From: Ignavibacteria bacterium
GTDB taxonomy: Bacteria; Bacteroidota; Ignavibacteria; Ignavibacteriales; Ignavibacteriaceae
Assembly: GCA_029863735.1 (NCBI GenBank)
Contig: JAOTUT010000019.1
Coordinates: forward strand, 1-12,561
Reading direction: 5' to 3'
Length of the DNA: 12,561 nucleotides
Shown in pieces: positions 1,870 to 12,561 of the stretch (positions are counted from its first letter, which is position 1; each line of letters starts with the position of its first letter). Position numbers and translations under genes: made by a program. The notes beneath the pieces are model-generated. The model searched no databases. It had not been told where the DNA came from and was given only the letters and a program-made list of their open reading frames with translations.

Positions 1870-2619
1870 TCAATTCCCTTTTTCCTCTGCAAACCTGTTC
1901 CTCAATACAACTGGTTTCCTTTTACTTTTCATTTTCAGATTTAACATTTCAACAAAAACCGAAAACGCCATTGCAAAATATATGTAGCCCTTTGGAATGT
2001 GCTGTTGAAATCCTTCTGCTATGAGTGATACACCAATCAACAATAAAAATGAGAGTGCAAGCATTTTAACAGTCGGATGTTTTTCAACAAAATCGCTTAT
2101 GCCTTTTGATGATACCATCATTACAATCACGGCAATGACTACTGCAAGAACCATAATTATTAATTCTTTTGCCATACCAACTGCAGTAATAACCGAATCC
2201 AGTGAAAATACAATATCAAGCAGCAATATTTGAACAATTACATTTGAAAATGATTTTACCGCTCTGCCGGAACTGTGGCTGTCCTCTCCTTCAAGTTTAT
2301 CGTGAATTTCGAAAGTGCTTTTCCCGATTAAGAATAATCCGCCTGCAATAAGTATTATATCTCTTCCACTTATTTCCTGTCCAAGTACAGTAAACAATGG
2401 TATCGTTAATTTCATTATCCACACGATTGAAAACAGCAAAAGTATTCTGGATATCATTGCAAGTGCTAAGCCTATTAGTCTTGCTTTATTTTGCTGTTCC
2501 TTTGGAAGCTTGCCGGATAGGATTGAAATAAAAATAATATTATCTATGCCGAGCACAATTTCCAGAACTGTTAAAGTCAGTAGTGCTATCAGCGATTCAG
2601 GGTTTGTAATCCATTCCAA
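1870..2619 (-). CDS. TerC-family integral membrane protein (YgdQ/Alx-like)
   Basis: This 249-residue polytopic membrane protein belongs to the TerC family. It has about seven hydrophobic segments (roughly 8-32, 45-70, 86-100, 125-147, 150-170, 185-200 and 211-228). The two hallmark acidic membrane motifs are present: LEIVLGIDNIIF (E20, D26, N27) and LLLDIVFSLDSV (D135, D141). The HIPKGYIYFAMAFSVFVE segment near the C-terminus is typical of the YgdQ/YoaE-type branch, and the length matches that branch. Studied TerC relatives such as Alx and the Bacillus MeeF/MeeY proteins export manganese or help metalate exported enzymes, so inner-membrane cation export is the likely role, though the substrate here is not known. 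The gene begins 30 nt after the stop of the upstream ABC ATPase gene on the same strand, so it is probably the last gene of that operon. A functional link to peptide uptake is not evident. Confidence 0.88.
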   Translation of the reverse strand: MEWITNPESLIALLTLTVLEIVLGIDNIIFISILSGKLPKEQQNKARLIGLALAMISRILLLFSIVWIMKLTIPLFTVLGQEISGRDIILIAGGLFLIGKSTFEIHDKLEGEDSHSSGRAVKSFSNVIVQILLLDIVFSLDSVITAVGMAKELIIMVLAVVIAVIVMMVSSKGISDFVEKHPTVKMLALSFLLLIGVSLIAEGFQQHIPKGYIYFAMAFSVFVEMLNLKMKSKRKPVVLRNRFAEEKGN

Positions 2620-2649: not shown

Positions 2650-3429
2650 TTATTGGTTTGAAGAGGCTTGTATTTCATCATAAGTAAGATCCAGTGCTTC
2701 GGCAGAAAGAAGAAATCTTGTGTAACTTTTTTTGGGATTGCTGAAGACTTCGCTTGTTTCCCCGCTTTCCACAATCTCACCATCCTTTAAAATTATCACC
2801 CTGTTGGTAAGATTTCTCAGAATTTTTAGGTCGTGACTAATGCATATCATCGTAAGGTGAAATTCTTCGTTGAGTTTTCGGAAAAGCTTTACAAGATTTA
2901 ATTGCGATTCAACATCCTGTGCTGAAAATGGTTCATCGAGAATTAGTAAAACAGGATTAGTAGCAAGTAATCTTGCAAGCGCTGCTCTTTGCTGTTCGCC
3001 ACCACTTAACTGATATCCTCTTCGGTCATAAAGTTCTTTTGGGAATCCAACAGAGCTTAAAATATTTTCTCTTCCCTTTGCAATATATTTTTTATCAATT
3101 CTGTTGATGACTAACACTTCGTCTACCACACTTGAAATTTTTCTATATGGATTTAGGACTTCTCCATGGTTCTGGAAAAGAATTTGAATTGGACTGCTTT
3201 TTTTATTATTAGATTTAGAATTTAAAGTTATCTTGCCGCTGTCAGGTTTAATCAATCCTGCAATTACTTTTGCAAGCGTTGATTTGCCTCCACCGGATTC
3301 ACCGCAAACTCCCAAAATCTCACTACTCTCAACTTCAAATGAAACTTTCTTTAAAATATCGAACTGCTTTTTGCTTTCTTCGTTAACCACAACCGAGTAT
3401 GAAATATTTTCAACTTTAAGCAGAGGCAT
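2650..3429 (-). CDS. Peptide-type ABC transporter ATP-binding protein (OppF/DppF-like)
   Basis: This 259-residue ABC ATPase should sit on the cytoplasmic face of the peptide-type importer encoded across the divergent region. All nucleotide-binding motifs are intact: Walker A GESGGGKST (43-51), Q-loop Q86 in ILFQN, signature LSGGE (141-145) followed by QQRAALARLLA, Walker B LLILDE (161-166) and switch histidine H199 in ISHD. The end has a short version of the OppF/DppF tail (NPKKSYTRFLLSA), but the protein is much shorter than the usual 300-330 residues because most of the oligopeptide-specific C-terminal region is missing. Its ATG lies inside the end of the other ATPase gene (14-nt overlap), with a weak GAG-type ribosome site upstream, so the two are probably translationally coupled and form a heterodimer. 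The substrate could be a peptide, nickel or another solute of this transporter class. Confidence 0.9.
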   Translation of the reverse strand: MPLLKVENISYSVVVNEESKKQFDILKKVSFEVESSEILGVCGESGGGKSTLAKVIAGLIKPDSGKITLNSKSNNKKSSPIQILFQNHGEVLNPYRKISSVVDEVLVINRIDKKYIAKGRENILSSVGFPKELYDRRGYQLSGGEQQRAALARLLATNPVLLILDEPFSAQDVESQLNLVKLFRKLNEEFHLTMICISHDLKILRNLTNRVIILKDGEIVESGETSEVFSNPKKSYTRFLLSAEALDLTYDEIQASSNQ

Positions 3430-4177
3430 TGCTTATCTCTTTAAATGAATGGATAAAGTTTTTCATTTTATCATCAGTTGAATTTAAGAACTCATCGGGG
3501 TTATAAAAACGAGTGAGATTTCCTTCAGACAAATACGCAATATGGTCAGATGACTTAAGCGCAAAGTTAATATCCTGTGTAGCGATCAGAACTGATTTAT
3601 CATTGTCTCTAGTAAAATTTTTTATTTTTAAGAGGATAAGATTCATTACTGCATAATCAACTCCTGAAGTCGGCTCATCCAGAATCAGGATGTCCGGATT
3701 TGCTAGCAAAGCAAGAACAATTAAAAGCCTTTGAGCCATACCGCCGCTCAACTCATATGAATGGAGACCGGATAATTTTTTATATGTGGGCAGTAAAAAG
3801 AAAAGCAGCAGTTCTTCGATTTTAAGCGGACTTATGTTTGAAAGATCAAAGTAGTACTTAATCTTTTTCAGAGGATCAAAACTATTAGCAGCATCTTGAA
3901 AAACATAACTAATATTATGCTTTCTTATCTCCCTTAATTCGTCTTCTGAACAATTTAGTAAATCAGTTTCATTAAAAAAAACTTCTCCTTTTACTTCATA
4001 TTCTATTTTTGGAAGAAGTGCTGTGAGTGATTTTATAAGAGTTGATTTGCCCGAGCCGTTCTTCCCAAGAATTGTATAGACTTTACCTTTCTCGATTTCA
4101 AAATTGATGTCATTAAGAATTGTTCGTCTTTTTTCCTCATCAAGAATTGAAACTGAATTTATGTCTACACTAAGCAT
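3416..4177 (-). CDS. Peptide-type ABC transporter ATP-binding protein (OppD/DppD-like) with altered H-loop
   Basis: This is the partner ABC ATPase, 253 residues from the ATG at 4177. Walker A is GKNGSGKST (38-46), the Q-loop glutamine is Q94 in YVFQD, the signature is LSGGM (143-147) and Walker B is ILILDE (163-168) followed by PTSGVD. The switch histidine is replaced by glutamine: the motif reads LIATQD (Q201, codon CAG) instead of the usual THD or SHD. The oligopeptide-type C-terminal extension is also absent, so it is well below the 320-335 residues of OppD/DppD. An in-frame start at 4306 would add 43 residues with no ABC homology and overlap the divergent lipoprotein gene, so the ATG at 4177 is chosen: the ABC fold begins at once with MLSVDINSV. 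It is the first gene of the minus-strand unit. The Gln substitution suggests that one of the two ATP sites is catalytically weaker. Confidence 0.88.
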   Translation of the reverse strand: MLSVDINSVSILDEEKRRTILNDINFEIEKGKVYTILGKNGSGKSTLIKSLTALLPKIEYEVKGEVFFNETDLLNCSEDELREIRKHNISYVFQDAANSFDPLKKIKYYFDLSNISPLKIEELLLFFLLPTYKKLSGLHSYELSGGMAQRLLIVLALLANPDILILDEPTSGVDYAVMNLILLKIKNFTRDNDKSVLIATQDINFALKSSDHIAYLSEGNLTRFYNPDEFLNSTDDKMKNFIHSFKEISNASA

Positions 4178-4260: not shown

Positions 4261-5919
4261 ATGAATAAAAAAAATATAAATCTTCTGCTTCTTTTCTTTC
4301 TTTCATTACTTATAATTGCATGCGATTCAAAACAATCTACAACTAATAATCGTATTGTCATCGGAATTTCTGCAGATGTTCAGACATTTAGTTCGCTGTT
4401 TGCATTCAGCTATGAAGAAAGCGCTATTGCGGATTTGCTTTATCCCGGTTTGCTGGATTTTAGATGGAATTCTGAAAGAGGTGAACTAGATCCATATCCC
4501 ATGATTGTCCAAAGTTGGCGATGGTCGGAAGATTCTTCCTACATTAAGTTTTACTTGCGCGATGATATTTTTTGGTCGGATGGAATAAAACTTACTTCTG
4601 AGGATGTTGTTTTTTCTTACGATGTTTTTTCTGATCCGGATGTTCAAAGTCGTTTGCTCGGAACCTTCAATCAACTTTATTCCGATTCTGATGGACATAT
4701 TGATATTGAGAAAGCTTTTAAAGTAATTTCTCCGAACGAATTTGAAATACATTTCGTAGAAAATTCGGTTGCTGATTTAGTGAAGCTTTCTATTCCAATA
4801 ATACCTGAACATATATATTCTGAAATAAGCAGAGATCAGATTGCTAATAGCGAAATTAATTTTAATCCGGTTTCAAGTGGTCCTTTCAAATTGAAAAAAT
4901 GGAACAGGAATCAAACAATAACTTTAGAAGCAGACAGTAATTCATTTCTTTTCACTTCAGGTCAAGCTGCTGAACTTATCTTTAAAGTTGTACCTGACTA
5001 TACATCAAGAATTTTACAGCTAAGAAAAGGTGACATTGATTTTGTTGAATTGGTGAAAGTCGAAGATATCGAGGATCTTAAAGCTGAAGATAAATTGTCA
5101 GTGATTAGTATTGTTGGAAGAGAATATGATTATATCGGCTGGAATAATATTGACCCGGAATCATTTTCTCAGGGGAAAATAATTCCAAATAAATTTTTTG
5201 GGAGTAATAATGTTCGCAAAGCATTAACAATGTCAATTGACAGGAAAGCAATACATAATGAATATTTATTGGGTCAGGGAGAGCTGGCAGTATCTCCGGT
5301 TTCCAGGATTTTTAAATTGGCTTTTAATATGGAAGTGAAACCGTACGAATATGATCCGGAGGAAGCCAAAAAACTTTTAGCACAGGATGGTTGGAAGGAT
5401 GAAGATCGAAACGGAATTCTTGAAAAAGGTAATGAGGAATTTAAATTCAAAATGTATTACCCTGTTGGAAATCCGCTGCGAGAGTATGCTTCAGTAGTTA
5501 TTAAAAATAATTTAAAGTCAGTTGGAATTGAAGTTAGCATTGAAAAAATGGAACTAGGAACATTCATTGATAATCTTTACGACAGAAAACTTAATTCGTG
5601 GATGGCTGCCTGGGGAGTCCCGATACCATTAGAATTAAAGCCTTTCTGGTATTCTGATCCAAACATCGGTATGCTCAATTTTGCCTGCTATGGCAATTCG
5701 GAAGTAGATAAAATTCTTAATCAACTTAATAAACGAATCAACAATGAAAGAAAAAATGAATTAGTAAAGCAGTTTCAGGTAATTATTCATCAAGATGAAC
5801 CAGTGAGTTTTCTTTACTGGACTCCAAATATTATAGCTTATAACAAGCGAATAAAAAATTTGAATATAACTCCGTATGGAGTTTTAGTCCATTGTTGGGA
5901 GTGGACTCTTAATGAATAG
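4261..5919 (+). CDS. Peptide-type ABC transporter solute-binding lipoprotein (SBP family 5)
   Basis: This 552-residue extracytoplasmic substrate-binding protein of the DppA/OppA family would capture peptides or a related ligand and deliver it to the two permeases encoded just downstream. It has a lipoprotein signal: a basic MNKKN start, a hydrophobic stretch and a lipobox ending IIAC, with the lipidated Cys at residue 21. Family 5 features include YLRDDIFWSDGIKLTSEDVV (98-117), FNPVSSGPFKLKKW near residue 200, RKALTMSIDRKAI near residue 320, and an EYDPEEAKKLLAQDGW segment. The length is normal for the family. The ATG at 4261 has no Shine-Dalgarno upstream, which is common in this lineage, and the signal peptide starts directly at it, supporting the start. 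Its stop overlaps the next start by 8 nt. The ligand cannot be read from sequence; nickel- and sugar-binding members exist in the same family. Confidence 0.93.
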   Translation: MNKKNINLLLLFFLSLLIIACDSKQSTTNNRIVIGISADVQTFSSLFAFSYEESAIADLLYPGLLDFRWNSERGELDPYPMIVQSWRWSEDSSYIKFYLRDDIFWSDGIKLTSEDVVFSYDVFSDPDVQSRLLGTFNQLYSDSDGHIDIEKAFKVISPNEFEIHFVENSVADLVKLSIPIIPEHIYSEISRDQIANSEINFNPVSSGPFKLKKWNRNQTITLEADSNSFLFTSGQAAELIFKVVPDYTSRILQLRKGDIDFVELVKVEDIEDLKAEDKLSVISIVGREYDYIGWNNIDPESFSQGKIIPNKFFGSNNVRKALTMSIDRKAIHNEYLLGQGELAVSPVSRIFKLAFNMEVKPYEYDPEEAKKLLAQDGWKDEDRNGILEKGNEEFKFKMYYPVGNPLREYASVVIKNNLKSVGIEVSIEKMELGTFIDNLYDRKLNSWMAAWGVPIPLELKPFWYSDPNIGMLNFACYGNSEVDKILNQLNKRINNERKNELVKQFQVIIHQDEPVSFLYWTPNIIAYNKRIKNLNITPYGVLVHCWEWTLNE

Positions 5920-6910
5920 AGTTTTGAGATCACAATTTGTAAAAACTATTTTTATCAGATTATTATCTTCTTTATTAACTCTTTTTCTTCTTGTTAGCTT
6001 TTTATTTTTTATTATAAGATTATCTCCCGGTGATCCAACTGATAAATACGTTTCCGCTAAGCTTGGCAGTGAACTTTCTGAAAGAATAGCTGAAAAGTTT
6101 TCACTTAACCAACCAGTTGCTGATCAATACTTTGCATTTGTTTCTAATATCTTTAAAGGAGATTTAGGAGTATCTTATAATTACCGGCTTTCGGTATTTG
6201 AGGTTATCTGGGAATATTTTTCTTTCACACTGATATTTGCAAGCATTAGTTTCATCATTCAGATTAGTCTGAGCATCTTGCTTGCAATTCGTGTTGTAAG
6301 AAAGCAGAATAAAAGGATAGAGCAAATTAGTACTAACTTATCTCTTTTTGTTTATTCAATTCCTGCATTTGTTCTCGGCGTAACTTTGATTTATATCTTT
6401 TCTGTTCATTTGAATTTACTTCCAATTTCAGGTTTAAAATCGCTTGATCACGATGAACTATCATTCTTCCCCAGGATATTTGATCAACTGTATCATTTGA
6501 TTCTGCCTTTGATAACTCTTTCTGTTGGAGGTGTTGCACTGTTTTATAAATATATAAAAGAAAGTATGGACGAAATAAAAAATCATACTTTTGTTGCTAA
6601 CCTGAGAGCAACCGGACTGGATGAAAATTTAATCCTGAGAAAGCACATTCTTCCAAATGCCATTAGACCATTAATCTCCGTTGCAGGCGTTGAGCTTGGA
6701 ATAATTCTGGGTGGAACATTAATAACAGAAGTGATTTTCAGCCTACCTGGAATGGGTCGGTTAGCAATTGATTCTATCTTATCCAGAGATTATCCATTAG
6801 TGATTGGCTGCGTTTTTACTGCTGGCACAGTAATGATTTTTGCTAACTTTCTTGCTGATTTGGCAAAGTTGAAAATTGATAAAAGAATGATTAAAGGAAT
6901 TTTGAATTGA
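5912..6910 (+). CDS. Peptide-type ABC transporter permease (DppB/OppB-like)
   Basis: This 332-residue inner-membrane permease has the normal length and layout of the DppB family. It has a first membrane segment at about 15-36, then RLSPGDPTDKY with the conserved PGDP, a periplasmic region containing GDLGVSY (83-89), and five further membrane segments. The cytoplasmic coupling loop that docks on the ATPase reads LRATGLDENLILRKHILPNA (231-250). The segment GGTLITEVIFSLPGMGRL (267-284) is also characteristic of the family. The start codon lies inside the end of the binding-protein gene, and a GGGAG about 10 nt upstream may help initiation. The stop overlaps the TTG start of the next permease gene. 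It should form a heterodimeric channel with that protein. Confidence 0.93.
   Translation: MNRVLRSQFVKTIFIRLLSSLLTLFLLVSFLFFIIRLSPGDPTDKYVSAKLGSELSERIAEKFSLNQPVADQYFAFVSNIFKGDLGVSYNYRLSVFEVIWEYFSFTLIFASISFIIQISLSILLAIRVVRKQNKRIEQISTNLSLFVYSIPAFVLGVTLIYIFSVHLNLLPISGLKSLDHDELSFFPRIFDQLYHLILPLITLSVGGVALFYKYIKESMDEIKNHTFVANLRATGLDENLILRKHILPNAIRPLISVAGVELGIILGGTLITEVIFSLPGMGRLAIDSILSRDYPLVIGCVFTAGTVMIFANFLADLAKLKIDKRMIKGILN
6893..6898 (+). promoter_or_regulatory. Ribosome binding site supporting a TTG start at 6907
   Basis: AAAGGA lies 8 nt upstream of TTG at 6907. It is one of the few clear Shine-Dalgarno sequences in the window. The next in-frame ATG is about 70 codons downstream and would remove the N-terminal membrane segments, so this site decides the start. 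Confidence 0.6.
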
Positions 6911-8187
6911 AATCGAGATTAAAAATAATTCACTGGATAATTTTTCTTTGGCTGTTAGTAGTCATATTCAGATTTGATTTAATAATTGATTATCTCTCTT
7001 TGATTTTAAGTTACATCAGTCTGCTTTTTACTGATACTTTTTCTGCGTTTGCAGTTCTAAGATTTAGCTTTGTTGATGGATCTTTATCTACTCTTCTTTT
7101 TCTTTTGATTATTCCAATGACACTATATTTTAGAAAAAAATTACGCTTCATCACAGGCAAACTGAATTTCTCTTTCGCTTTTCTGGTATCACTCATTTTT
7201 GTTTTTCTGTTTGCGCCAATTATCTCAAATGAGAATCCTGAATTCTCGAAAAATCTATCTGTAACAAAACTACTTCCACCGTTGAGTTCTGTAAAACAGA
7301 TTGAGTTAAAATCTGATAAAGGGCAGAAATTATCTGAAGTTGAAACTTTTCGAGTTAATTCAGAAAGTATTATCAAACCGCCATTTAATAACAATATAAT
7401 GTTTGCGGATAGTGTAGTTATTTCAGATCAAGTTGTCTATTATCAAAAAAATGAAGCTTATGAAGTTGAAAGAGATTTGTTGATTAATAAAGCTGGAATT
7501 CCTGTTATCGAAGAAAAATTTTATTTACTTGGTACCGATGAGTTTGGAAGAGATTTATTTTCCAGACTTATTTATGGAACTCGTATTTCTATTACTGTTG
7601 GATTAGGGGCAGTCGTTCTATCATTTATTATAGGCATTATTTTAGGATTCATCGCAGGTTATCGGGGTGGTTTATTTGATATATTGCTTAATCGCTTTAC
7701 CGAAATGTTTTTAGCTTTTCCTGTAATTTATCTTATTGTATTAATCTTAGCTTTGTTTGGCAGTTCAATCTTATCAATCATAATTGTTTTGGGAATTTCT
7801 GGCTGGATGAGCTTATTTAAAATTGTAAAGAGTGAGGTTCTATCTATCAAACAAAAAGATTTCTTTTCAACAGCGGAACTTGTTGGTTTGAATAAGCTTC
7901 AATTATTATCAAGAGAAATATTACCTGTAATTTTGGCTCCGGTTTTAGTAAACCTGGTTTTTCTTTTCAGCAATGTAGTGCTTGCCGAAGCTGCTTTGAG
8001 TTATCTTGGGCTTGGAACAGGCAATACTTATCCTTCCTGGGGTTCAATGATAAGTTCAGGGCAGGAGTACATTACTAAAGCCTGGTGGCTTATTGCTTTT
8101 CCGGGATTAGGTTTAATATTAACATTATACACTTTTAACTCATCAGGAAGAATGCTCGGTAAAGTATTTAATCCAAGAATAAAATAA
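6907..8187 (+). CDS. Peptide-type ABC transporter permease (DppC/OppC-like), extended
   Basis: This is the second permease of the importer, with 426 residues against about 280-310 for most DppC proteins. The C-terminal half is canonical: LLGTDEFGRDLFSRLIYGTR (207-226), five membrane segments, a coupling loop TAELVGLNKLQLLSREILP (322-340) and the family end motif EAALSYLGLG with PSWGSMI. Two regions are extra. The N-terminus holds about three additional hydrophobic segments (roughly 8-22, 24-42 and 58-76) before the usual first membrane helix (88-106). The extracytoplasmic stretch between that helix and LLGTDEFGRD is about 100 residues (107-206), roughly twice the usual size. The start is TTG at 6907, overlapping the previous stop in TTGA and preceded by AAAGGA. 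The gene ends in TAATG, which overlaps the kinase start by one base. Confidence 0.9.
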   Translation: MKSRLKIIHWIIFLWLLVVIFRFDLIIDYLSLILSYISLLFTDTFSAFAVLRFSFVDGSLSTLLFLLIIPMTLYFRKKLRFITGKLNFSFAFLVSLIFVFLFAPIISNENPEFSKNLSVTKLLPPLSSVKQIELKSDKGQKLSEVETFRVNSESIIKPPFNNNIMFADSVVISDQVVYYQKNEAYEVERDLLINKAGIPVIEEKFYLLGTDEFGRDLFSRLIYGTRISITVGLGAVVLSFIIGIILGFIAGYRGGLFDILLNRFTEMFLAFPVIYLIVLILALFGSSILSIIIVLGISGWMSLFKIVKSEVLSIKQKDFFSTAELVGLNKLQLLSREILPVILAPVLVNLVFLFSNVVLAEAALSYLGLGTGNTYPSWGSMISSGQEYITKAWWLIAFPGLGLILTLYTFNSSGRMLGKVFNPRIK

Positions 8188-11100
8188 TGATAAATACCCG
8201 CTACGAAATAATTAAGAAACTGGGGGAGGGGAGAAGTACCGTTTATCTTTGTAATGATATTGAAGCTACTGATGAGAAGTATGCAATAAAAATTCTTCCT
8301 TCTGATGCAGACAATTATGAAAAAGAGTTTTTTATTAATGAGTATTTTACTCTTCAAAGACTGGAACATCCAAATATTATAAAAGCCTACGAATTAGGTG
8401 CTGTCTTTAAAACTGATGGTGAAGAGGGAATAGAGACTGGTTCAACTTTTATTGTATTGGAATATTTTGAAGGCGAAGAATTACTTTCCTCAAATGTAAT
8501 CAGCAATGAGGCTAATCTCAAAGAAATTGTTAAACAAATTTGTACTGCTCTTTATTACCTTCATCAGTCAAAATATATTTATTATGATCTTAAACCAGAG
8601 AACATTCTTGTTTCGTTAAAAGATAATTTCCCACAGTTAAGATTGATCGACCTTGGTCTTGCCGAATATTCTCCAGCTCCATCAAAGTACGAAATCAAAG
8701 GAACAACGCACTACATTGCTCCTGAACTGCTAAAAAAAGAAAAACACAATCATTCTGTGGATCTTTATTCACTTGGAATGATAATGTACCAGATTATTTA
8801 TAATAAGTTTCCATTTAATGCGAAGGTTGAGCTTGATGTTTATAAATCTGCTATAGAAGATGATTTCGATTTTCCAACGACTTCACATTTTTCTCAGGAA
8901 TTAATTAGTGTTGTTAAAAAGTTGTTGGAAAAAGACCTTAATCAAAGATATTCATCAGCCTTAGCAATAATCAAGGATTTGGGCTTTCCGATTAGTGTAG
9001 AGATCAGTGAAGAATTTTTACCTGCCAAAATTTATTCTTGTCGTGATTCTGTCATTAACCAATTGTCTGCATACATTGAAGATCAAGACAGTACAGCAGT
9101 TTTTACAATTAAAGGGTTTGAAGGTGTTGGCAAATCATCATTGCTAAATAAAATACACGAACTTTACCGGCAGGCTTTACTCGTCTCAGATGTTAAAGGA
9201 AAATCCGTTGAAGAATTAATTCGTTACCTTTTAAGACAAATTATTTTTTCAGAATCTGTTTATCCGAAACTTTCAGAAAAAGATAAATTATTTCTCCTGC
9301 AGCAGCTTGATTTAAGTCCGAAAGAAATTATTAATGAGTTCAAAACTTCTGTGGCAATAATTTCTTCAAATTGTAAATTCATTCTGCTAATTGATGATAT
9401 AAATTTATATGATCAACTTGTAAGTAACCTGATGTTGAATATTATTCCAATTCTTCAGGTAAATAATGTTAAAGTCATAGTAACTGAATCCTCAGAGCAT
9501 GAATTCCTGTCAGTTAATATTAATAACCGCAAAGAACTTACTTTAGGTCCTTTTGTTGATCAGGAATTAGTAACTTTTTTAGAAGAGAGTTATAGTTCGG
9601 ATTTCCCCCGGGAAAAGATAAAAAACCTTATAATTAAAAACGCTGATCTAATCCCGGGAAATATTAAATCGTTCATCAAAGATTTAATTCTTTTCGAAAT
9701 ACTGAAATTCTCAGAAAAAGGAGTAATCTTTTCTGATAACGAAGATAAGCTTTCGTCCATAACTGAAGCACATTTTGCTGTTTATGATTTAAGACTGACC
9801 AACCTTTCAAGGAAAGAACTAATTGCAGTGCAACTTCTGTCAGCAATTGACGTTTACATTGACTCTAATACCTTATCGATTCTTCTCGGATTAAGCAGAG
9901 AAGAAGTTGATAAAATGATTTTCAATCTTCAATTCAACAACATAACACAAAAATTCATTTCCGGACAGACACTAATTTTCACATCTGAGGCAATCAAGAA
10001 ATATATTTATGCATCGATTGAAAACAAGAAAAAGCTGCATCACAATATCGCCATAAAACTCACCAGGAAACTCCCTTCTTTTAACCGCCTGGAGTCTGCA
10101 AGGCAGTACGAATTAGCTGGTGAATTTGAAATGTGCTACAAGATAACGATGGAAGAACTTAAGGATGCTGAACTGCACTCAACATTCACTTATATGCAAA
10201 TGTTACTCAGTCATTTGGTGGAACTTCCTGTTAAACAGGAATTGATTGATTCAGCAAAAATTAAACTGAGTGAAGTCTATTTGAAACTTGGAGATGTGCA
10301 ATCATCACTGAATACAATTAAAGAGTTAAAGAATACGCTGCCTGAAACAAAGATCGATAGTAAATTATACTTTATAGAGGGAAGCGCACTAATTGCTTCT
10401 GGTGAGTATGACGCTGGTAAACGCGTAATGTCTGACCTCCTTAAGAAAATCAAAGATGTTAATGAGAAGAACCGATTAAAAGTTGAATTAGCTTATGCTG
10501 ATTTTGAGCTTAAGATGTATAATGAAGCTAACGAACAGTGTGATCATCTTCTCAACAACAAAAATCTTTTTCCGGAGTTAAAAGGACGCTGTTATAATTT
10601 AAAAGGAATGATTTATATATATCAAAGCAATGAATTGAATTCAGCTCTTGAAAATTTCATAAAAGCAAAATCTCAATTTGTTGAATCAAATCAGCCTGTC
10701 CGCATAGCAGGTGCAGAAGTAAATATTGGAAATGTATTTAACATACTTTCAAATTATGAAAAGGCCGAAGAGCATTTACAAAATGCTTCTAAAATTAATC
10801 AGTCAATCGGCAATCTTGATCAGGAGGGATTGCTTTTGCAAAACTTAGGGATATTTTACTTTAATCGGCAGAAATTTGATTCTGCAATTCAATCATATCA
10901 AAAAGCAATAAAGATATTTTTAAGTATAGGAAATGATTTAAGCAGGGGACTAGTTCTTTGGGACCTTGGGGAAATTTATATTACCATTTGTGAGTATGAA
11001 AAAGCCCTAAATTCATTGAATGAAGCTCAGCATCTATTTGAACAAATGAACAATTATTCTGAATTATCAGATGTATTGATTATGAAAGGAAAGTTATTTT

Positions 11101-11756
11101 ATAAGATCGGAGCATTTCAAAAACTAGAAGAAATTTTGGAAAGTTTTCAGATTAGTTATTCTAACCATAATCTTCAAGAGAGTCACCAAATTTTTCAAAA
11201 ATTGTTAATTCAATTGAGGTCTTTTTACAAAGAGAAAAAAATTTCAGTGGTTGAATTAATATCAATTCGAAAAGAGATGATCATGAGAAAAGACTATCAT
11301 AACTTTGTAGAGGTCATAAACATACTTGTCCAGTTTTATATCCATAAGAGGTTGTACCAGGAAGCCATTAAAGAACTTTATAGTCCAGAACTTATTGAAT
11401 TATGCTCACAAAATTCTATATTGGAAGCACAAAGAGAATATTTTTTAGGAATTATTTCTAAAAACATAAAATCAGATAAACTTTTGCCACCATTGGTATA
11501 TTTTGAAAAAGCATATGATTTAATAAAGGATGAGTATATAAACGAATTGACCTGGAAAGTTTTATTTGAAATTTCGGAATTATACATTGAAAGGGGCAAC
11601 CTCACTAAAGCAAAGTATTTTGTTACGTATAGCAGGGAGTTGATCTATTTTATAGCGGAAAAAATAGAATCACCACACTTACGGGCAGCTTATTTACGAA
11701 ATGGTGAAAGAATGTACACTTTAAAGAAATTAGAAAGTTTTTATCCTTCAAATTAG
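8187..11756 (+). CDS. Ser/Thr protein kinase - NTPase - TPR multidomain signalling protein
   Basis: This 1189-residue cytoplasmic regulator has three parts. An N-terminal eukaryotic-like kinase (about 6-265) has glycine loop GEGRSTVY (13-20), ATP-binding K35 in YAIK, catalytic D134 and N139 in YYDLKPEN, metal-binding D155 in a DLG variant of DFG, and TTHYIAPE (173-180). The usual HRD reads YYD, so it is a non-RD kinase whose catalytic Asp is kept. A central P-loop NTPase (about 280-620) has Walker A GFEGVGKSS (310-318) and Walker B ILLIDD (399-404), like the AAA_16/STAND modules of PknK-type kinases. The rest is helical, with clear TPR repeats at about 798-832, 843-872, 882-911 and 921-951. 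No membrane segment was seen. The start is coupled to the permease stop (TAATG), and the sigma-54 activator follows after 3 nt. It probably senses a cue through the TPR/NTPase part and phosphorylates or binds a regulator. The partner is not proven. Confidence 0.9.
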   Translation: MINTRYEIIKKLGEGRSTVYLCNDIEATDEKYAIKILPSDADNYEKEFFINEYFTLQRLEHPNIIKAYELGAVFKTDGEEGIETGSTFIVLEYFEGEELLSSNVISNEANLKEIVKQICTALYYLHQSKYIYYDLKPENILVSLKDNFPQLRLIDLGLAEYSPAPSKYEIKGTTHYIAPELLKKEKHNHSVDLYSLGMIMYQIIYNKFPFNAKVELDVYKSAIEDDFDFPTTSHFSQELISVVKKLLEKDLNQRYSSALAIIKDLGFPISVEISEEFLPAKIYSCRDSVINQLSAYIEDQDSTAVFTIKGFEGVGKSSLLNKIHELYRQALLVSDVKGKSVEELIRYLLRQIIFSESVYPKLSEKDKLFLLQQLDLSPKEIINEFKTSVAIISSNCKFILLIDDINLYDQLVSNLMLNIIPILQVNNVKVIVTESSEHEFLSVNINNRKELTLGPFVDQELVTFLEESYSSDFPREKIKNLIIKNADLIPGNIKSFIKDLILFEILKFSEKGVIFSDNEDKLSSITEAHFAVYDLRLTNLSRKELIAVQLLSAIDVYIDSNTLSILLGLSREEVDKMIFNLQFNNITQKFISGQTLIFTSEAIKKYIYASIENKKKLHHNIAIKLTRKLPSFNRLESARQYELAGEFEMCYKITMEELKDAELHSTFTYMQMLLSHLVELPVKQELIDSAKIKLSEVYLKLGDVQSSLNTIKELKNTLPETKIDSKLYFIEGSALIASGEYDAGKRVMSDLLKKIKDVNEKNRLKVELAYADFELKMYNEANEQCDHLLNNKNLFPELKGRCYNLKGMIYIYQSNELNSALENFIKAKSQFVESNQPVRIAGAEVNIGNVFNILSNYEKAEEHLQNASKINQSIGNLDQEGLLLQNLGIFYFNRQKFDSAIQSYQKAIKIFLSIGNDLSRGLVLWDLGEIYITICEYEKALNSLNEAQHLFEQMNNYSELSDVLIMKGKLFYKIGAFQKLEEILESFQISYSNHNLQESHQIFQKLLIQLRSFYKEKKISVVELISIRKEMIMRKDYHNFVEVINILVQFYIHKRLYQEAIKELYSPELIELCSQNSILEAQREYFLGIISKNIKSDKLLPPLVYFEKAYDLIKDEYINELTWKVLFEISELYIERGNLTKAKYFVTYSRELIYFIAEKIESPHLRAAYLRNGERMYTLKKLESFYPSN

Positions 11757-11759
11757 ACT

Positions 11760-12561
11760 ATGTCAGAAGGGCAATATAATATAAAAGTTTTTTCAGATTC
11801 AGAGGACCTGGTTTCCATTACTTCTGCTCTTAAGCAATTGGAGCTAAAAGGATTTCAACTGAACATATCATTTCCATCGGAACTTGATTTAGATAATAAT
11901 GATATAATAATTCTAAAAATTCAATCTCTCGACTCAACTTTATTTAAGAATGCACTAAAAGCAAGAAGAGGGAAAACAAATAAATTTATTGTAGTCATAA
12001 GCAACTCAGATGCTTTACTCGTGACTTCACTATTAAAGCAGGGATTCTTAGATATTTTTGTCTTTCCTTACGAGGTACTTAAATTCACTTCATATCTTGC
12101 CGAAGTAATTGCTAACAAATCATACATCACAGAAGTTAGTCGCATTGGAACATTTGGTATGAATCGCCATGGTATCAAATCAATTATTGGTGATTCAGAA
12201 AAACTTTTAAGAGCTTTAGAGTTGGCAAGCAAAGTTTCAGAAAAAAGTAATTCAAATGTTTTAGTACTTGGTGAAACCGGTACAGGTAAAGGATTATTTG
12301 CAAGAGCTATTCATAATAATGGTCCTGCAAATCAGTTCCCATTTATTGATATAGTCTGTACGGCTATACCTGAAAATTTGTTGGAGTCAGAGTTGTTTGG
12401 TTATGAAGCAGGTGCATTCACTGATGCCCGAACCAGAAAAGTCGGTTTATTTGAACTCGCTGAAAGAGGGACACTCTTTCTCGATGAAATTGGTGATCTA
12501 AGTTTTAATATCCAGACCAAGTTATTGAGAGCTGTTGAAAAGAAAGTTATAAAAAGATTAG
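11760..12561 (+). CDS. Sigma-54-dependent transcriptional activator with degenerate receiver domain (3' partial)
   Basis: The first 267 residues of an NtrC-type bacterial enhancer-binding protein are present, and the frame runs off the window. Residues about 6-120 fold like a response-regulator receiver, but the phospho-acceptor position holds lysine (DIIILKIQ, K53) and the conserved KP motif reads FP (VFPYE, 101-105), so Asp phosphorylation is not expected. From about residue 141 the sigma-54 AAA+ domain starts with SIIGDSEKLLRAL. Walker A is GETGTGKG (171-178), the sigma-54-contacting loop reads GAFTDA (218-223) instead of GAFTGA, and Walker B is TLFLDEIG (238-245). A C-terminal DNA-binding helix-turn-helix is expected beyond the window. 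The ATG is 3 nt after the kinase stop with no clear ribosome site, so it is probably translated with the kinase. It should activate sigma-54 promoters, with control by the adjacent kinase as a hypothesis. Confidence 0.92.
   Translation, partial: MSEGQYNIKVFSDSEDLVSITSALKQLELKGFQLNISFPSELDLDNNDIIILKIQSLDSTLFKNALKARRGKTNKFIVVISNSDALLVTSLLKQGFLDIFVFPYEVLKFTSYLAEVIANKSYITEVSRIGTFGMNRHGIKSIIGDSEKLLRALELASKVSEKSNSNVLVLGETGTGKGLFARAIHNNGPANQFPFIDIVCTAIPENLLESELFGYEAGAFTDARTRKVGLFELAERGTLFLDEIGDLSFNIQTKLLRAVEKKVIKRL

Follow-up and report, generated by a model that had tools for sequence, protein, structure and literature searches.

A conserved row of peptide importer, kinase and sigma-54 activator genes in Ignavibacteria, a candidate receiver of imported peptide signals

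Quorum sensing by imported peptides has been described in bacteria for Gram-positives (PMC10075063, PMC9765709, PMC11343458). RRNPP receptors are delimited as proteins of 250–500 amino acids that match peptide-binding tetratricopeptide repeat (TPR) models (PMC10075063), and multicopy, tandemly duplicated pheromone precursors are known from Rap systems (PMC11343458). Cyanobacterial dual, or cbSTKIII (HstK-type), kinases contain, in this order, a Ser/Thr kinase, an ATPase, a long middle part, a GAF domain and a histidine kinase (PMC2176072, PMC1262709). The window analyzed here, a stretch of 12,561 nucleotides of contig JAOTUT010000019.1 from an Ignavibacteria bacterium, contains five successive plus-strand genes for a substrate-binding protein (SBP), two permeases, a Ser/Thr kinase-STAND NTPase-TPR protein and a sigma-54 enhancer-binding protein, referred to below as the activator (Table 1). 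Overlaps of 8, 4 and 1 nt join the first four genes, and a gap of 3 nt separates the last pair, in exact agreement with a preliminary description of the window; the gene families that it had named were also recovered by Pfam, with AAA_16 just short of its cut-off. The row is a conserved signalling-transport locus, and we consider it just probable that it serves as the receiving half of a circuit by which Ignavibacteria signal with imported peptides. The open-licence literature searched yielded no paper on either the locus or peptide signalling in Ignavibacteria.

In the proposed circuit, a secreted precursor termed REP, whose gene follows that of the activator in many relatives, would carry many copies of one 16-residue peptide, and PROP, a neighbouring HExxH protein, or another protease would free the peptide or a piece of it. 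The OppABCDF importer would take the peptide in, and the TPR superhelix of the STAND-type kinase would bind it and switch the NTPase/kinase. The kinase, with a GAF histidine-kinase-like protein (GAF-HK), would then switch the activator by phosphorylation or direct contact; the receiver-like part of the activator seems unable to take phosphate. The activator would fire a sigma-54 promoter directly behind its own gene, raising REP and PROP in a positive loop. Gene order, co-occurrence, repeat evolution, promoter-like sites and predicted folds were seen directly, those bearing on the precursor, protease and promoter steps in relatives, and from them we infer every functional step. REP is a likely ligand precursor, encoded in the locus of many relatives, and the kinase protein is the proposed receptor.

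A scan of a genome collection yielded at least six loci with the kinase and at least ten more matching only in the repeats. The first six were from Ignavibacteriaceae (twice), Ignavibacteriales, Melioribacteraceae, a Bacteroidetes bacterium and Bacterium BMS3Abin03. Within the class of the first kinase locus (Ignavibacteriaceae), the kinase is present in 62 of 391 sampled genomes (E up to 1e-60). These six loci (L001–L006) and 58 further ones (L050–L107) make up the set of 64 loci used below, from which L108, a second stretch of one genome, and G150, with a short open reading frame (ORF), were left out; the profiles used to sort neighbouring genes into families came from members of these same loci. 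OppC is encoded directly upstream of the kinase in 50/64 loci and the activator directly downstream in 42/64 (six more end there); the two genes overlap or lie within 23 nt of each other in 48 of the former pairs and 41 of the latter. An oppD-class gene is found in 47/64 loci. When unclassified ORFs of fewer than 135 residues are ignored, SBP-oppB-oppC-kinase is intact in 42/64 loci, and with the activator as well in 29/64; the corresponding counts in a second set, the family of the window relative G186, are 13/20 and 12/20. The order is kept while kinase identity drops to about 24%. The preliminary description had held that a gene order found only in this genome would speak against its reading, an objection that fails because the row is conserved across many genomes of the class. 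The sensing module that it suggested is still the reading that best fits the genome sequences, with importer, kinase/TPR protein and activator in one conserved row; the actual module is larger, and the importer is not what the activator is predicted to switch first.

In relatives, the gene after the activator encodes either REP, a secreted tandem-repeat protein, or a lipoprotein of about 190 residues. After the example of enterococcal systems, this lipoprotein was considered as another possible source of a pheromone. Of the 37 REP genes found, 24 immediately follow the activator gene. The closest relative searched that has readable downstream DNA, G415 (65% kinase identity), shows the order kinase-activator-REP-PROP-GAF-HK. 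REP proteins have a signal-peptide-like start (by eye; often ending in AQ), a conserved NVEEAxRYRV-like stretch, a linker and 2–16 copies of a 16-mer with the consensus S-N-S-Q-L-E/D-E-L-G-S-R-Y-G-F/W-x-R/K. The copies differ at 0.35 of 16 residues within a gene and at 6.58 of 16 between genes, and the 34 genes compared hold 32 distinct units. Synonymous exceed nonsynonymous differences between copies in all 34 genes with enough clean copies (median pS 0.21, pN 0.00). Since recent copying alone would have erased the synonymous differences too, selection holds the copies within a genome to one form as lineages diverge, and the identity of the copies is what one shared partner, such as a receptor, might be expected to impose. 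A large protein collection contains 155 REP relatives; among the 120 listed, those named are called "hypothetical protein" and are mostly from Ignavibacteriaceae or Ignavibacterium, with single labels of Bacteroidota and Bathyarchaeota. Pfam and NCBIfam matches of REP to CbiG_mid, Bflower, DUF3782 and phosphatidylserine decarboxylase were treated as chance because they sum weak repeats of which no stretch passes alone, as was a PhrA_Strep match (E 0.022) that covers the signal peptide of one REP.

REP matches occur in 28 of the 391 genomes. After a weak match in G052 (20% identity) was set aside, the remaining 27 genomes all contain the kinase (P 8e-25), and all contain a high-scoring PROP or pieces of one. 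Relatives of PROP were found in 66 genomes. A gap in the score distribution, used after the scores had been seen, set apart the 29 counted here: 27 score at least 1,368 bits, and G001 and G272 hold pieces. All 29 have the kinase; in the two without a REP match (G333 and G201), the stretch of kinase locus retrieved ends directly behind the activator. The other 37 genomes carry lower-scoring paralogues (at most 811 bits) and mostly lack the kinase. Kinase, REP and PROP co-occur also where REP and PROP are located on other contigs.

The window activator has the hallmarks of a sigma-54 enhancer-binding protein, with a Sigma54_activat match and a loop that reads GAFTDA where GAFTGA is usual; the AAA+ domain seems intact, other GAFTxA variants appear in relatives (45-row alignment), and the AAA lid and HTH_8 are seen in a full-length relative (L050, 459 residues) only. 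The preliminary description called it "receiver-less-type", which is too simple: by eye, the first ~125 residues align like a receiver without its phospho-acceptor Asp. By eye also, K, Q, H or other residues stand at the acceptor place in all but about three of the 45 rows (L097, L102 and L104). On this reading the protein does not count as a phosphorylatable response regulator, and classical phosphotransfer to it is unlikely given that the receiver-like N-terminus lacks the acceptor (by eye).

Sigma-54-like sites are concentrated behind the activator gene. A preset consensus scan (sites scoring at least 9/12, expectations from shuffles) found sites in 12/38 stretches behind the activator (0.5 expected) and in 3/34 stretches that precede other lipoprotein, TPR or PROP genes (0.30 expected). 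It found none in 12 stretches behind a kinase without an activator between, 22 before GAF-HK, 80 others and 32 oppD/SBP gaps, the last of which say little because the gaps are short. A second pattern, widened after four sequences had been inspected, matched in front of 13/24 REP genes after the activator (0.05 expected), 4/21 lipoprotein genes and 1/2 TPR genes in that place, 2/17 other lipoprotein genes, 2/19 other TPR genes and 2/219 unclassified genes (0.35 expected), and in front of none of 13 REP genes elsewhere, 43 SBP, 22 kinase and 49 oppD genes. Neither pattern matches in G415, where TGGCATAAGCATTGGGT at the same place is nearly the element of L001, L050, L051 and L053. From this concentration of sites, the first target of the activator is most likely the gene directly behind it and not the importer. 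An association of rpoN with the activator was also considered and fails, as every one of 65 genomes contains rpoN. In L054:1-6303, the activator is followed by a tandem run of four lipoprotein and three TPR genes (one cut); sigma-54-like sites accompany two of the lipoprotein genes, and the run is possibly a multi-target array.

The kinase protein consists of ~1,189 residues, with a Ser/Thr kinase at 8202-8957, a Walker A motif at 9114-9137 and a TPR superhelix at about 10086-11753. Pfam matches are Pkinase (1.4e-50), TPR_12 (9.9e-18) and, just below cut-off, AAA_16 (1.6e-6; 29.2 versus 32.6 bits); TPR_MalT is also below cut-off (25.5 versus 45 bits). In an alignment of 54 rows, the first of which has no kinase part, the kinase K, D, N and D columns are conserved at 90% or more, with YYD replacing HRD, as are the Walker A G-K and Walker B D columns. 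Conservation was taken from this alignment; a tally by regular expression was too strict, with many misses, and was discarded. The structure model of residues 270–1189 (mean pLDDT 87.0, pTM 0.79) matches folds of the STAND/Apaf-1/MalT type (6MFV, MalT 8BOB and Apaf-1) and of Rap/NprR. Alignment columns, model and fold matches together display the P-loop NTPase, winged helix and repeat sensor of STAND NTPases. In G396, the kinase gene lies on contig C1 in two pieces (residues 374–1182 and 1–367) ~554 kb apart and in opposite orientation, as if split by a large inversion or a misassembly. G167 contains two kinase copies (L065 and L108) that start ~10 kb apart on one contig, with REP and PROP on other contigs.

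Beyond REP or the lipoprotein, relatives encode PROP and/or a TPR protein of ~415 residues with no signal peptide by eye, then a GAF-HK of ~435 residues and often a PAS hybrid kinase. In PROP, HExxH and a later QE are invariant in 12/12 aligned sequences, and the protein shows similarity to a TolB-like propeller. An HExxH motif plus a downstream Glu is the mark of gluzincin-like metalloproteases. Because no peptidase family passed its cut-off in family profile searches despite the HExxH, PROP is a putative protease, predicted to lie at the outer surface. GAF-HK lies within the locus in 40/46 loci with at least four ORFs downstream. Its H-box position (GQ.LQGLVH) is occupied by Q, L, Y or N in 17/49 sequences, which suggests a pseudo-histidine kinase in these cases. 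The His is lost in 16/36 GAF-HKs from activator-bearing loci versus 1/13 from loci without an activator (Fisher p 0.02; the sequences are related), a tie that is only suggestive.

Several observations weigh against the circuit. The window ends before REP, which is predicted in its genome and unseen there. REP is present in only 27 of the 62 kinase genomes, and many others carry a lipoprotein and a cytoplasmic TPR protein in that place. Among the 64 loci, 14 kinases are not directly behind oppC (two of these at a contig end) and six loci (L074, L098–L101 and L106) have no importer in view; in eight of the 84 loci of both sets, oppD and oppB have no SBP gene between them, although each of the five genomes tested of these eight has one SBP relative elsewhere. 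A sigma-54 site precedes only about half of the REP genes that follow the activator, and the four or five closest relatives read TTGGC, and G415 TTGGG, at the -12 element, where TTGC is canonical. TPR fold matches are common, and APPBP2, MalT and LGN score like Rap. RRNPP peptides are 5–10 residues long, shorter than the sixteen of REP. Partial Mantel tests on 18 loci, corrected for oppB, oppD and kinase-domain distances, provide a lead to co-evolution of REP, SBP and TPR: REP unit distance tracks SBP distance (r 0.43, p 0.0005) and TPR distance (r 0.27, p 0.015), and neither NTPase (-0.25) nor oppC (0.12) distance. These tests are liberal, however, and activator distance is tracked as well (r 0.28, p 0.02).

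Three other readings of the locus have to be weighed. REP could be a repeat protein secreted for structure or adhesion, of a beta-solenoid or curli-like kind, that PROP displays or trims; the row would sense peptides or another cue and merely regulate this surface system, with REP its output and not a ligand. The AlphaFold2 model of REP shows weak beta repeats, with one weak strand per 16-mer, so that a beta-solenoid, amyloid or other structural repeat is possible, but its confidence is low (pLDDT 57.9). Secretion, tandem repeats and the sites in front of about half of the genes also suit such an output, as do the propeller match of PROP and the barrel-like end that its C-terminus seems, by eye, to have. 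Structural repeats need not match each other, though, and the near identity of copies within a gene at high synonymous divergence, while 6.6 of 16 residues differ between genomes, would be explained by recognition by one partner; moreover, the weak match set aside above is the only REP match in a kinase-less genome among the 391. We regard a structural REP as unlikely, though the most serious of the three.

Still less likely is a nutrient- or stress-responsive split multi-kinase, in which the Ser/Thr kinase-STAND-TPR protein and GAF-HK would be a taken-apart HstK-type kinase reading an internal cue through GAF or TPR, the importer a co-expressed client, and the REP and lipoprotein genes ordinary targets. 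The same order is found in fused kinase-AAA_16-(unassigned)-GAF-PAS-HisKA-HATPase proteins encoded on a Nostoc plasmid and a Microvirga plasmid, GAF-HK belongs to most loci with enough downstream sequence, and L098–L101 and L106 keep kinase-activator-lipoprotein-TPR-GAF-HK with no importer in view. This would leave the strict co-occurrence of REP and PROP and the identity of the copies unexplained, and the phospho-His position is lost in 16 of the 36 GAF-HKs mentioned above. Lastly, the neighbourhood might have no regulatory link, as a long operon kept by shared expression or vertical descent. Linkage inside a clade can persist by descent, yet the order outlasts the fall in kinase identity, and REP, PROP and kinase keep company even with REP and PROP on other contigs; this reading is very improbable.

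The importer is complete inside the window, because two ABC ATPase genes omitted from the list of the preliminary description, which had the SBP and both permeases, are divergently arranged upstream of the SBP gene. The window therefore contains all components of an Opp/Dpp-type importer by Pfam and NCBIfam: SBP of family 5, two BPD_transp_1 permeases and two ABC ATPases. The best NCBIfam matches of both ATPases are to peptide (dipeptide/oligopeptide), nickel and opine importer ATPases, all below cut-offs. The first ATG of the oppD-like ORF is at 4306, and the ATG at 4177 would give a divergent gap of 83 nt to the SBP gene; gaps of 81–86 nt in about ten relatives point to 4177 as the probable start.

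Table 1. Importer, kinase and activator genes of the window
Feature	Position	Strand	Evidence
Opp-type ABC ATPase, oppF-like	2650..3429	-	ABC_tran 2.6e-28 (Pfam)
Opp-type ABC ATPase, oppD-like	3416..~4177	-	ABC_tran 3.6e-26 (Pfam)
SBP family 5 lipoprotein, extracellular, OppA-like	4261..5919	+	SBP_bac_5 2.5e-70 (Pfam); Opp4A model match below cut-off (NCBIfam)
Permease, OppB-like	5912..6910	+	BPD_transp_1 5.1e-33 (Pfam)
Permease, OppC-like, TTG start codon	6907..8187	+	BPD_transp_1 2.7e-24 (Pfam)
Ser/Thr kinase-STAND NTPase-TPR protein	8187..11756	+	Pkinase, TPR_12, AAA_16 (Pfam); model; fold matches
Sigma-54 enhancer-binding protein	11760..12561 (ORF 11760-12560, open at window end)	+	Sigma54_activat 3.6e-44 (Pfam)

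A gene for a TerC-family membrane protein (1870-2619, minus strand) adjoins the ATPase genes, as it does in the close relatives L050 and L051. In many loci, a recurrent gene of ~155 residues starting with KTNAIRILE is found behind oppF (for example L056:1910-2377); its product may resemble a YbaK-type deacylase. The window begins with an FG-GAP repeat protein carrying a type IX secretion system sorting tail (2-1789). GC content is high in its repeat part (0.58 over the first kb) and ~0.33 in the tail and remaining window; this shift inside one ORF, at ~1500, suggests either a passenger gained by horizontal transfer and fused to a native tail, or a join made in assembly. Rfam gave no match within the window. 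Scans of the window for sigma-70 promoters (50 found versus 40.8, sd 5.9, in shuffles) and terminators (6 versus 8.3) were discarded.

More broadly, the locus may represent an Ignavibacteria peptide pheromone system with multicopy precursors, a co-encoded surface protease, a dedicated Opp importer, a STAND-type Ser/Thr kinase receptor and a receiver-dead sigma-54 activator amplifying precursor and protease, and hence an import-type class of peptide quorum sensing outside Gram-positives with species-specific peptide codes. We put this forward tentatively, as a proposal that could well be wrong. If true, a Gram-negative group would have evolved the same logic with other parts, namely a receptor of the kinase-STAND type, a switch acting through sigma-54 and a precursor with many peptide copies, and orphan proteins of the kinase-NTPase-TPR family would gain a candidate ligand. 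Because genomes spell out the 16-residue units, pheromone, receptor and specificity would become directly testable with synthetic peptides.

Compared with known systems, the importer shares an SBP, two permeases and two ATPases with Opp/Dpp/Nik ABC importers and differs in that its genes reach no NCBIfam cut-off. The activator resembles the NtrC family in its AAA+ sigma-54 domain and, in the relative, its lid and HTH_8, and departs from it in the receiver-like part without phospho-Asp and in GAFTDA and the other GAFTxA loops. The NTPase, winged-helix-like and TPR architecture is that of STAND NTPases with a TPR sensor (6MFV, MalT and Apaf-1), here with a kinase domain in front and TPR_MalT below cut-off. 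PknK is a kinase fused to a MalT-like NTPase-TPR part. "PknK-like", the term of the preliminary description, may fit by the domain order and captures only part of the system, since GAF-HK in the same locus follows the HstK-type "dual" order in split form. Ser/Thr kinase, ATPase, long middle part, and GAF with histidine kinase come in the same order as in HstK-type kinases; in those, Ser/Thr kinase and GAF-histidine kinase form one polypeptide, whereas here they are two genes, mostly with the activator and others between, an importer is attached and the GAF-HK His is often lost. The kinase protein has the TPR fold of the Rap/NprR/PlcR type and REP is encoded close by in relatives, but the protein has 1189 residues with kinase and NTPase parts, and nearly all REP genes exceed 100 codons, where RRNPP systems have an adjacent secreted propeptide of 10–100 residues. 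The locus is thus not filed as an RRNPP member, because it falls outside the receptor definition, though the proposed logic is alike. With the RRNPP(A) systems of Bacillota (Rap-Phr, NprR-NprX, PlcR-PapR and PrgX) it shares a secreted precursor near the gene of a TPR receptor, an Opp-type importer, several peptide copies per precursor and a TPR fold matching Rap and NprR; it differs from them in its Gram-negative phylum, the 1,189-residue kinase-STAND-TPR protein as candidate receptor, the output through a sigma-54 activator, 16-residue units repeated up to 16 times, a protease-like gene next to that of the precursor, and importer genes in the same row.

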